DNA of 64,000 nucleotides, from assembly GCF_024055715.1 (NCBI RefSeq), contig NZ_JAMXMV010000009.1, positions 62,001 to 126,000 on the forward strand, read 5' to 3'. Shown one piece after another: positions 3,981 through 7,750 of this stretch (the first letter of the stretch is position 1; each line of letters starts with the position of its first letter). This stretch comes from Actinoallomurus soli. Its GTDB lineage: Bacteria > Actinomycetota > Actinomycetes > Streptosporangiales > Streptosporangiaceae. The position numbers were made by a program, and so were the translations under genes. The notes below the pieces were generated by a model, which searched no databases, had not been told where the DNA came from, and was given only the letters and a program-made list of their open reading frames with translations.

Positions 3981-4331
3981 CCGCCACTCCCTGCCTCGAT
4001 CGACGTCCAATCGTCGGCAAGGACATCTATCACGCGGCGCGTCGCCCGGTTCGCACCGGGCCGTCGCGGCTCGGCGCGGCGCTCGACCTGCTCGGGCGGG
4101 CTCCGGAGGGCACTCCGCGCTCGCGTGGCCTGGTGTGGCCAGGGCGCTCGGCGGGCGGCATACCGGACGGTTCGCGCGACTAGGGCAGGAGCGTGGTTCT
4201 GCCAATCACGCGGACGGCCGGTTGTAGAAAGTTTCCTTTTACTTCGCTGTTGACGACGTAAGTTTCCTTCTTCACGATCGGGGACACCCGGGCAGGCCTG
4301 TCACGTCGGAACGAACGAACGGAGACAGAAG
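3981..4331. other. Intergenic region between divergent genes, 351 bases
   Basis: Separates the leftward serine hydrolase from the rightward cysteine-rich gene. The right half is unusually AT-rich for this genome (about 4225-4275) and holds the candidate promoter and the repeated AAGTTTCCTT boxes listed separately. No gene is recognised in it. Confidence 0.6.
4229..4278 (+). promoter_or_regulatory. Candidate promoter with two direct AAGTTTCCTT boxes
   Basis: A -35-like TTGACG at 4250-4255 and a weak -10-like CACGAT at 4273-4278 are separated by 17 bases. AAGTTTCCTT occurs twice, at 4229-4238 and 4260-4269, exactly 31 bases apart (about three helical turns) and flanking the -35. This looks like a regulator site for the cysteine-rich operon that starts at 4332. 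Confidence 0.4.
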
Positions 4332-4757
4332 ATGGGGTGTTCCAACAGCAGCTCTCCCGCCTACGGGGAGATGTCGTGGTTCTGCTGCGGCAGCTCCTGG
4401 GGACCCTGCGGGAGCGCGGGCGGTGGGGCCTGCGGCACCTGCAACTCCGGCTCGCACCAGTGCGCGTGGCCGAACACGTCCGACGCCTGCTTCAACATCA
4501 CCCGGCCCGACCAGTGCGGTGAGGGCCTGGCCCGTCGCACCTGCGGCCACGTGTTCTACGTGACCAGCGTCTGCAGCGGCAAGTGCGTGAGCGTGTCGAT
4601 CGCCGACTGCGGACCGGACACGAACTCCTTCTGCGGCGAACGGTCCTGCTGCGGGTCGACCTGCTACACCAACCGGATCATCGACCTGACGCCCTCGGCC
4701 TACAGCGCCATCGCCGACCTCTCGACCGGGCTGTCCCCCGCCCGTATCGACAGCTGA
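4332..4757 (+). CDS. Cysteine-rich double-psi beta-barrel (RlpA/expansin/barwin-like) protein without signal peptide
   Basis: A 141-residue protein with 17 cysteines, all in the first ~112 residues, in patterns such as FCC, CGTC and SCC. The C-terminal part (VSVSIADCGP ... RIIDLTPSAYSAIADLS ... ARID) matches the double-psi beta-barrel core of RlpA, barwin and expansin proteins, including the conserved Asp of DCGP and of IIDL. The cysteine density implies an oxidised extracytoplasmic protein, yet there is no signal peptide: the start is MGCSNSSSPAYG, with GGAGAC nearby as ribosome site. It is followed 15 bases later by a Tat-signal gene and then by a MauE-like membrane redox gene. Function unknown; cell-wall binding is inferred from the fold. 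Confidence 0.7.
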   Translation: MGCSNSSSPAYGEMSWFCCGSSWGPCGSAGGGACGTCNSGSHQCAWPNTSDACFNITRPDQCGEGLARRTCGHVFYVTSVCSGKCVSVSIADCGPDTNSFCGERSCCGSTCYTNRIIDLTPSAYSAIADLSTGLSPARIDS

Positions 4758-4772
4758 CCGGAGGCCCCCGCC

Positions 4773-5375
4773 ATGCCCCAGCCAGATCGCCGTCGTTTCC
4801 TCACCTCCGCCGTGCTCGGCGGTTCCGCCGTCGCCGGGGCCACCGCCCTCGGCTCGCTGGCCCCCGAGGCCGCCTTCGCCGCCGCGCCCAAGATCAAGCT
4901 CGACCCGGGCGCCCTCGACCCGAACTTCGCCGAAGGCCGGATCACCGGCATCAGCGGCTCCCTGCTCAAGGCCTCCGGATCCGACCGGACCCTGCACCGC
5001 ATCCACATCACCGACGGCACCAGCATCTGGAAGCTGCACCCGACGACCTTCGACCAGATCAAGGTGGGTGACGGGTTCTACGCCCGCGGCGTCCGCCTGC
5101 CGGACGGCTCGCTGGCCGCAGACGCGATCTGGGTGAACATCGTCAACCTGGACGCGTCGATCGCCGCGATCGAGACCGCGCGCCTCCACCTCGACCACAA
5201 CGGCAAGCGAGTGATCGGTCACGTGGTCGGCGGCAGGACCGCCGCGGTGTACGGCTCCGCGCCGGCCGTGGCCGACCTGACCCGGCTGCAGGTCGGCAGG
5301 CATGTGAAGGTGATCGGCGCCTGGCGGCCCGACACCAACGAGGTGGACATCGCGACCGTCTACTCGGGCGCGTAG
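4773..5375 (+). CDS. Tat-exported protein with two OB-like (DUF5666-type) segments
   Basis: A 200-residue protein with a clear twin-arginine signal (DRRRFLTSAVLGG at 5-17, hydrophobic to about 30, likely cleavage near AFA at 34-36). The mature part holds two similar beta-rich segments, one with GRITGISGSLLKA ... IKVGDGFYARGVRLPDGSLAADAIWV and a second with KRVIGHVVGG ... LQVGRHVKVIGAWRPDTNEVDIATV, like DUF5666 OB-type units. There are no cysteines in the mature part. The gene sits between the signal-less cysteine-rich gene and the MauE-like gene (20-base gap), so a shared role is likely. A carrier role in Tat export of the neighbour is a hypothesis. Confidence 0.65.
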   Translation: MPQPDRRRFLTSAVLGGSAVAGATALGSLAPEAAFAAAPKIKLDPGALDPNFAEGRITGISGSLLKASGSDRTLHRIHITDGTSIWKLHPTTFDQIKVGDGFYARGVRLPDGSLAADAIWVNIVNLDASIAAIETARLHLDHNGKRVIGHVVGGRTAAVYGSAPAVADLTRLQVGRHVKVIGAWRPDTNEVDIATVYSGA

Positions 5376-5395
5376 CCGGAAGGAGGCGATCTTCC

Positions 5396-6223
5396 ATGGT
5401 CGAGTGGCCGGCGTCGGTCCAGCCGTTGTTCGTCGGCGCGACCCTGCTGTGGTCGGGCGGGGTCAAGTGTGCCGGCGCGTCCGCCCGCCGCGCCGCCCAG
5501 AGGTCCGCGTTGCGGTCGCTGGTCGGCGAGGCACGGGCGCCGATCGCCCACCGGCTGGTCGGCGCGGCGGAACTGGCGCTGGCCGCCGCTCTGCTGCTGC
5601 CTCCGGTCTACGCGGGTGAGGCCGTGGCCGCCGCCGTGCTCGCCACCGGGTTCCTCGCGTACCTCGCGTACGCCCGCGTCGTCGCGCCGGACTCCTCCTG
5701 CGGCTGCATGAGCGCGCGCCCCATGCCGGTGACGTGGCGCGGCTTCGCCCGCGCCGCGCTCATCCTGGCGGCGGCGCTGCTCGGCACCCGGGCGGGCCCG
5801 TGGTGGGACGCGGCGACCGGTCACCCGTGGGCCGCCGGAACGACACTCCTCGGCGAGGCCGCGGCGCTGGTCGCGCTGTCACCGGAGGCGGACCGGCGGT
5901 GGCTGTACCCGCTGCGGCGGCTGCGGGTACGCCTGCGGCACCCGCTCGCCGACCGGTCGTTCGACATGCCCCTGGAGTCCAGTCTCCAGCAGCTCCTGGG
6001 CAGCACGGCGTACCGGCAGGTCAGCGGACTGCTGCGATCCGGGCTACGGGAGACCTGGGACGAGGAGGACGTCCGGGTGCTCTGCTACACCGCCGAGTAC
6101 GAGGGACGGCTCGCCACGGCCGTCTTCGCGGTGCCGCTGCGGCACTACCGGCCCGAGGAGATCCGCGTCGCCCTCGTCGACGAGTCGGCCGAGTCGACGC
6201 TGCTGGTCCTCGACGGCGCCTGA
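5396..6223 (+). CDS. MauE/DoxX-like redox-associated membrane protein with C-terminal extension
   Basis: A 275-residue protein. The first ~165 residues form a helical membrane bundle (segments near 9-25, 55-70, 76-96, 117-131, 147-161) typical of MauE/DoxX proteins, with a Cys-Gly-Cys pair (C102, C104) in SSCGCMSARP and another Cys at 25. MauE is needed for disulphide formation and maturation of methylamine dehydrogenase small subunit; no mau genes are here. A soluble tail of about 110 residues (LYPLRRLRVRLRH ... EDVRVLCYTAEYEGR) is unusual for the family. AAGGAGG precedes the ATG. The likely client is the 17-Cys protein two genes upstream. Confidence 0.65.
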   Translation: MVEWPASVQPLFVGATLLWSGGVKCAGASARRAAQRSALRSLVGEARAPIAHRLVGAAELALAAALLLPPVYAGEAVAAAVLATGFLAYLAYARVVAPDSSCGCMSARPMPVTWRGFARAALILAAALLGTRAGPWWDAATGHPWAAGTTLLGEAAALVALSPEADRRWLYPLRRLRVRLRHPLADRSFDMPLESSLQQLLGSTAYRQVSGLLRSGLRETWDEEDVRVLCYTAEYEGRLATAVFAVPLRHYRPEEIRVALVDESAESTLLVLDGA

Positions 6224-6341: not shown

Positions 6342-6638
6342 TCAGCCGCCCGCCATCGCGCCGACGATCAGGAAGGGCTCGGCGCCCTTCGCGACCGGCT
6401 CGGGCAGCGGGGTGTCCGGCGGGTCGTGGGAGAGGTCCCGCTCGCACGCGTAATAGCGGACGAACGCCCGGCGCCGGAGGGTGCCGTGGTCGCGGATGGT
6501 GCCGCGCAGCACCGGATACCGGTCCTCCAGGGCGTCGAGGACGGAGCCGGGCGTCACCGGCCCGGCGACGTCGAGCCGGACCTCGCCGTCGATCCTGGCG
6601 AGGACCTTCAGGTGCGCGGGCAGGACGACACGGATCAC
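6342..6638 (-). CDS. MoaD/ThiS-type ubiquitin-like small protein ending in Gly-Gly
   Basis: A 98-residue beta-grasp protein: [20 protein letters not shown] start, [19 protein letters not shown] middle and a C-terminal AMAGG. The terminal di-glycine is the functional hallmark of sulphur-carrier and ubiquitin-like modifiers that are adenylated by an E1-like enzyme. The GTG start overlaps the stop of the upstream BNR-repeat gene (GTGA), so the two are translationally coupled. No moaE, thiG or cysM-like partner is nearby, which argues against a plain molybdopterin or thiamine role. Confidence 0.75.
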
Positions 6639-7750
6639 GGCAGCGTCTGGACTTCGACGGACAGGACGGCCGGGAGGTCCCGGGCGATCGGCGCCCAGGA
6701 GTCCCCGGCGTCGGCCGAGGCGTAGACCTGACCACCGGTGGTGCCGAAGTAGACGCCGCAGGAGTCGAGTGAATCGACCGCCATCGCGTCGCGGAGCACG
6801 TTGACGTAGCAGTGCTCCTGCGGCAGCCCCTTCGTCAGGGGCTCCCAGTCACCGCCGCCCGTCCGGCTGCGGTAGACGCGCAGCCGTCCGTCCGGCGGGT
6901 AGTGCTCGGAGTCGCTCTTGATCGGCACGACGTAGACGGTGTCCGGCTCGTGGGCGTGCACCGCGATCGGGAAGCCGAAGTCCGACGGCAGGTCGCCGCT
7001 GATCTCGTGCCAGGACTCGCCGGCGTCGTCGGTCCGCATGACGTCCCAGTGCTTCTGCATGTACAGGACCTCCGGGCGCGACGGGTGCAGCGCGAGGCGG
7101 TGGACGCAGTGGCCGACCTCGGCCTGGGGATCCGGGATGCCGTTGCTGACCAGGCCGCGGTTGATCGGCCGCCAGGTGTCGCCGCCGTCGTCGGTGCGGA
7201 ACGCGCCTGCGGCGGAGATCGCCACGTACATCCGGCGCGCGTCGGACGGGTCGAGGATGATCGTGTGCAGGCACATGCCGCCCGCTCCCGGCTGCCACGA
7301 CGAGGCGGAGCCGTGGCGGCGCAGTCCGGGCAGCTCCTCCCAGGTCCCCCCGCCGTCCTCCGACCGGAAGATGGCCGCGTCCTCGGCTCCGGCGTAGACG
7401 GTGTCCGGGTCGGCCGGTGAGGGCTCCAGGTGCCAGACGCGCGCGAACTCCCAGGGATGCGGCGTCCCGTCGTACCACTGGTGGGTGCCGGTGGCGCCGT
7501 CGTACTCGAACCGGTTGCCCACCGGCCGCCAGGTCCGCCCGCCGTCGTCGGACCGCTGGATCAGCTGCCCGAACCACCCGGAGGACTGGGTGGCGTACAG
7601 CCGGGACGGGTCGGCCGGTGAACCCGCCATGTGGTAGATCTCCCAGCCGCCGAAGAAGGGACCGCTGATGTCCCACTCCTCCCGGTGGCCGTCCGAGGTG
7701 AGGACGAACGCGCCCTTGCGCGTCCCGACCAGTACCCGTACTCCGCTCAC
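6635..7750 (-). CDS. BNR/sialidase-like repeat beta-propeller protein
   Basis: A 371-residue protein with repeated Asp-box-like motifs ([66 protein letters not shown]), giving a predicted six- or seven-bladed propeller of the sortilin/photosystem assembly type. No signal peptide is seen, so cytoplasmic location is likely, unlike true sialidases; the sialidase catalytic Arg triad and nucleophile Tyr cannot be identified. GTG start at 7750 is preceded by GGAGGAG. It is coupled by a GTGA overlap to the ubiquitin-like gene. Confidence 0.75.

Follow-up and report, generated by a model that had tools for sequence, protein, structure and literature searches.

A conserved three-gene module of actinomycetes encoding a cysteine-rich barrel protein, a Tat-type partner and a MauE-like membrane protein: a candidate system for disulfide formation and export

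The window analyzed here, a 64,000-nucleotide stretch of the 9.4-Mb Actinoallomurus soli genome, which also encodes TatC, contains three genes, designated A, B and C, that are aligned in this order on the + strand with intergenic gaps of 15 and 20 bases. Gene A (4332..4757) encodes a 141-residue protein with 17 Cys residues and no signal peptide, which its structure model assigns to the double-psi β-barrel (DPBB) proteins. Gene B (4773..5375) encodes a 200-residue, Cys-free protein with a Tat-type signal (4773..4883; RRRFL..., a hydrophobic region and AFAA, with the cleavage site read by eye), and its mature part tentatively comprises two OB-like β-barrels. Gene C (5396..6223) encodes a 275-residue MauE-like membrane protein in which five transmembrane (TM) segments are predicted, followed by a soluble C-terminal portion. 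Its Cys-Gly-Cys (CGC) motif lies at residues 102–104 (5699..5707), and the part following TM5, which starts with an Arg-rich stretch (5888..6220), recurs in the C-like genes that accompany the fused proteins described below. A short repeated AAGTTTCCTT-like motif was seen by eye in the gap 5' of gene A (4224–4270). Beyond gene C, a 98-residue protein ending in GAMAGG (6342–6638, − strand), which we take to be ThiS/MoaD-like, overlaps a presumably BNR-repeat-like protein (6635–7750, − strand).

The initial annotation regarded A, B and C as one module, and comparison across genomes showed that the module is real and conserved. A species-level search, which used one genome per species and was restricted to loci with common short exact peptide patterns, yielded 12 loci: A-B-C occurred in order at 11, and the remaining one, from Actinomadura sp. 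DC4 (L012, 7974–8357), is a decayed module in which an A fragment continues in frame into a C fragment. Fodinicola feengrottensis (L010, 3627–8390) possesses three tandem copies of A, two of which are followed by B and C; the frames of A and B in the first set and of C in the second are broken, and the third A lies at the contig end. The A profile matched 46 of 250 genomes of the window's family (27 full-length, one truncated in G429, one remnant in G436 and 17 distant), and all 27 full-length matches were accompanied by B and C. A clear B was found in 28 of these 250 genomes, namely the same 28 that have a full-length or truncated A, while the B profile gave one additional weak match (G419). 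In the class sample, A was scarce (5 of 394 genomes), and both genomes outside the window's family also had A-B-C. Taken together, B and C lie downstream of A at all 37 distinct loci where A is full-length (40 locus records minus five repeats, plus L166 and L167), so that A was never seen without its two neighbors, although shared ancestry inflates these linkage counts. This number excludes the truncated L044, where B and C are present, and the decayed copy, which is recorded as L012, L045 and L066. Beyond related genera, few other genes recur near the split loci, in which A and B are separate.

The absence of a signal peptide from the 17-Cys protein A, which had been noticed in the initial annotation, was borne out by its homologs. 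The homolog from Actinoallomurus spadix is 96% identical, and identities of 62–96% across genera rule out a chance open frame. A signal missed at an upstream start was likewise ruled out, since none was found in 41 frames upstream of A homologs, some of which represent repeat loci; a strongly hydrophobic 17-mer occurred only in L005, where it lies far upstream and precedes an Arg-rich stretch. Fourteen Cys residues are invariant in all 31 sequences, while C3, C44 and C85 covary (all three in 7 sequences, none in 22, C44 alone in 2), a pattern that partly reflects shared ancestry. S15, D92 and D118 are also invariant (31/31) and may correspond to active-site residues, among them acidic ones, of bacterial expansins. 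The RlpA/expansin-like barrel proposed for A holds in part: the structure model matches solved DPBB structures, but the score against PF03330 (RlpA/expansin-type DPBB) was 19.6 bits, below the curated cut-off of 28.8. A sequence search of solved structures gave weak matches only (loosenin, E 0.03; PA4485, E 1.4), and an NCBIfam search with A and C returned nothing informative.

Protein B was confirmed to be a Cys-free protein with a Tat-type signal. The twin-arginine motif is present in 26 of 26 B proteins, all of which have a hydrophobic region, with a longest uncharged stretch of at least 17 residues and a KD17 of 1.36–1.78. A Foldseek search with the model of B retrieved many OB-fold proteins, but the TM-scores across both domains were low, and the description as two OB barrels therefore stays tentative.

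A second line of evidence comes from a fused relative, in which a B-like part is followed by an A-like part in a single frame of 320–511 codons. Seventeen fused loci were collected (15 of the 17 distant family matches of the A profile and two from a separate search), 14 of whose proteins are taken in by set A5; two weak matches with no C-like gene (L064 and L065) were not counted. Profile comparison placed B on positions 4–163 of the fused family (E 4.7e-10) and A on positions 237–305 (E 7e-9), and both proteins of the divergent split locus L166 matched the fused profile directly (E 3.9e-10 and 6.9e-10). A profile of the fused family gave matches in 44 of 394 class genomes: 40 belong to the window's family, where it is widespread and of which G250 is the one listed genome without it, and the other four matches are weak, with two of them (G529 and G576) in genomes that carry split modules. 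The A. soli genome itself has one fused gene, on contig C57, with a MauE match just downstream. A C-like gene follows the fused gene at all 17 loci. The fusion is evidence for A and B acting together, and linkage and fusion combined indicate that A and B are likely functional partners and that C is part of the unit. The fused relative also strengthens the escort of A by the Tat-type partner suggested in the initial annotation, whose overall interpretation is partly supported.

The fused proteins do not look like ordinary Tat substrates. Most retain an RRxxLxAAVLG-like motif, similar to the first part of the signal of B, but not the hydrophobic stretch that comes next in B; their longest uncharged stretch is 9–14 residues, and their most hydrophobic 17-mers fall within the B-like domain. 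Their KD17 (0.90–1.65) overlaps that of B, and this index alone cannot separate the two groups. Lacking the hydrophobic region of a signal, the fused relatives look cytoplasmic, and a related system thus seems to work without export. An obligate cell-surface location, as initially proposed, is not supported in that form. A divergent sigma-70 family gene adjoins the fused gene at all 17 loci (L047–L063, by clustering) and in the A. soli genome (L114:6119–6733), with Pfam confirmation covering L047 and the A. soli copy. The sigma-70 cluster has no member in the 13 split loci included in the clustering.

Protein C belongs to the MauE family as initially annotated (56.6 bits against PF07291, curated cut-off 27), with the Pfam match covering only residues 4–130. 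All 52 distinct C proteins contain CGC, and a CxC between TM3 and TM4 is typical of the family. Charges were analyzed in 50 of these 52 proteins. The mean numbers of Lys and Arg in the N-tail, loop 1, loop 2, CGC loop, loop 4 and C-tail were 0.0, 5.9, 0.1, 3.4, 0.6 and 6.1 in 34 C proteins of split loci and 0.3, 4.1, 0.3, 5.7, 0.4 and 5.5 in 16 C proteins beside fused genes. In all 50, most of the positive charge thus falls in three places, namely loop 1, the loop that carries CGC and the tail beyond TM5, which predicts that the N-terminus is outside and that CGC faces the cytoplasm. One limit of this prediction is that TM windows are weak in the C of the window itself (KD19 0.62–1.68, K+R index 7).

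This predicted orientation appears to be the reverse of that of MauE proteins linked to DsbA. A DsbA-like gene is present at 29 of the 30 top-scoring actinobacterial MauE loci, and the MauE domains of L133, L134, L138 and L139 appear from reading to be naturally fused to a DsbA-like domain, a hint at how DsbA-linked MauE is usually oriented. In this comparison set, which is the best-scoring part of the MauE search plus L112 rather than a random sample, and from which L140 (no CxC, MauD-like neighbor) was left out, the net charge is positive in the N-tail (about +2.2) and negative in the CGC loop (about −1.6). The K+R index averages 1.4 in this set versus 9.2 in C, but 22 of the 29 DsbA-linked proteins also have a positive value, and the index is therefore not a clean orientation classifier. 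Neither a DsbA-like nor a MauD-like gene was found in the stretches examined near 12 split and 17 fused loci, where the MauD-like search was a phmmer search with one MauD-like query that also missed the MauD-like gene of L149. Among other MauE-like proteins, a CxC-in charge bias was found in L145 (12), L147 (11), L149 (9), L150 (7) and L151 (4), and the opposite bias in L158 (−5). Small 6-Cys peptides are encoded near the MauE-like genes of L149 (5439–6107) and L150 (2697–2852); L149 has two similar 6-Cys peptides together with genes that by eye are MauD-like, ATP-grasp-like and ABC transporter-like, and the MauD-like proteins of L147 and L149, also read by eye, show a TM segment followed by Arg-containing stretches. 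The A. soli genome has another MauE-like gene on contig C58, near a Tat-type 11-Cys protein (L113:4784–6446) that has no Pfam family above cut-off and combines the signal and the Cys-rich region in a single chain.

In many actinomycetes, the A-B-C unit probably serves to make a Cys-packed protein, oxidize it at the membrane and export it by means of the tag on its partner, although we infer most of these steps. The simplest account of an A that lacks a signal, a B of the Tat type and a C predicted to face the cytoplasm is oxidation inside followed by paired Tat export. As a maturation and export module for a disulfide-rich barrel protein, the unit would operate as follows. A is synthesized with no signal of its own; C, which appears inverted when compared with the DsbA-linked MauE proteins of actinobacteria and whose CGC would face the cytoplasm, would help to oxidize the seven or so disulfides of A while A is still in the cytoplasm; folded A would then bind B, and the Tat signal of B would carry the pair across the membrane in hitchhiker fashion. 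Exported A may bind a wall polysaccharide or an inhibitor target, as do expansins and kiwellins of the same fold. We put this sequence of events forward tentatively, somewhat short of an even chance. Tat moves folded proteins, and a Tat cargo with about seven disulfides raises the question of where the bonds form. According to the available text of PMC6708511, an scFv was not exported by Tat without cytoplasmic disulfide formation, a result that gives the order of oxidation and export a reason; however, the same text cites work whose title describes Tat export without prior disulfide formation, and this counts against our proposal, as does the odd number of Cys residues in the window's A. What speaks most strongly against an export role across the family is the absence of a signal in the fused relative, which keeps a cytoplasmic redox role in contention.

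We also considered a broader version of this proposal, in which an inverted MauE defines a dedicated bacterial pathway for cytoplasmic disulfides: it would oxidize a signal-less barrel at the inner membrane face, the Tat-signal partner would export the finished cargo, the fused relative would keep the same chemistry inside, and inverted MauE proteins with cytoplasmic Cys-rich substrates, including RiPP-like MauE loci, would form a general class. So wide a generalization is somewhat unlikely. The module itself also suggests that MauE proteins adopt one of two orientations in the membrane according to where their substrates are located.

The fused relatives bring a purely cytoplasmic role into view, in which A or the fused protein would stay inside and act as a sensor or redox store, cycling between thiol and disulfide together with C, which would face the cytoplasm, the signal of B being an anchor or a side branch. 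The lack of signal peptides in A and the fused relatives, the predicted position of CGC and the sigma-70 family gene at every fused locus all fit such a role, which we nevertheless judge unlikely: all 26 B proteins carry a Tat-type signal with a hydrophobic region, B accompanies A at 37 of 37 loci, A resembles secreted proteins in fold, and the sigma-70 cluster is absent from the clustered split loci. The version in the initial annotation, in which B escorts A through Tat and oxidation then takes place outside with the help of C, draws on the same linkage and fusion evidence, and the DsbA-like genes at 29 of 30 top-scoring MauE loci, together with the four apparent fusions, speak for it. Oxidation outside is not supported as it was written, however, and seems unlikely, because the charge bias places CGC inside in all 50 C proteins analyzed, the searches near 12 split and 17 fused loci revealed neither a DsbA-like nor a MauD-like gene, and Tat prefers folded cargo according to the available text of PMC6708511. 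It is a very remote prospect that A is a precursor of the RiPP type cross-linked by a MauE enzyme, in the way suggested for MauE clusters of Streptomyces. Three candidate families there combine mauE with a precursor that has eight or more Cys residues (PMC7794033, as far as its available text goes), and the 6-Cys peptides of L149 and L150 also lie near MauE-like genes, but A is a single conserved DPBB domain with a short variable N-terminus and no evident leader/core division, it has a fused multidomain relative, and on informal inspection no exporter or protease recurs beside the listed split loci, although single cases were seen by eye, with an M16-type peptidase in L009 and L011 and an ABC ATPase in L008.

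Where the disulfides of such a cargo form can be examined directly in this natural, operon-like module, which assigns cargo, escort and candidate oxidase to different genes and has a fused relative for comparison. Maturation of methylamine dehydrogenase (MADH) by MauE and MauD likewise combines a disulfide-rich protein, MauA, with a MauE membrane protein. MauA carries a Tat signal, whereas in A-B-C the signal sits on a separate protein, B, and a MauD-like neighbor is missing from the stretches examined; the MADH light chain family PF02975 had no match in the genome in a search that was uncalibrated, as no positive control responded. Tat hitchhiker export is exemplified by the hydrogenase-2 subunits and by MelC1/MelC2. 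A and B resemble such pairs in combining a signal-less cargo with a partner bearing a Tat-type signal, but A is Cys-rich and not known as a metalloenzyme, the unit includes a membrane redox gene, and the A-B complex is one that we infer. In fold, A shares the DPBB with PA4485 (4avr), kiwellin, expansins and loosenin. Among the matches listed from the open-license literature, we recognized no description of the three-gene module, although the occurrence of MauE beside Cys-rich genes is already noted in a published RiPP survey of Streptomyces (PMC7794033). The available text of that survey, like our analysis, places MauE beside a Cys-rich gene and reports no other mau genes; the Cys-rich product is a short precursor in the Streptomyces families, whereas in the module described here it is a folded domain with a Tat-type partner.
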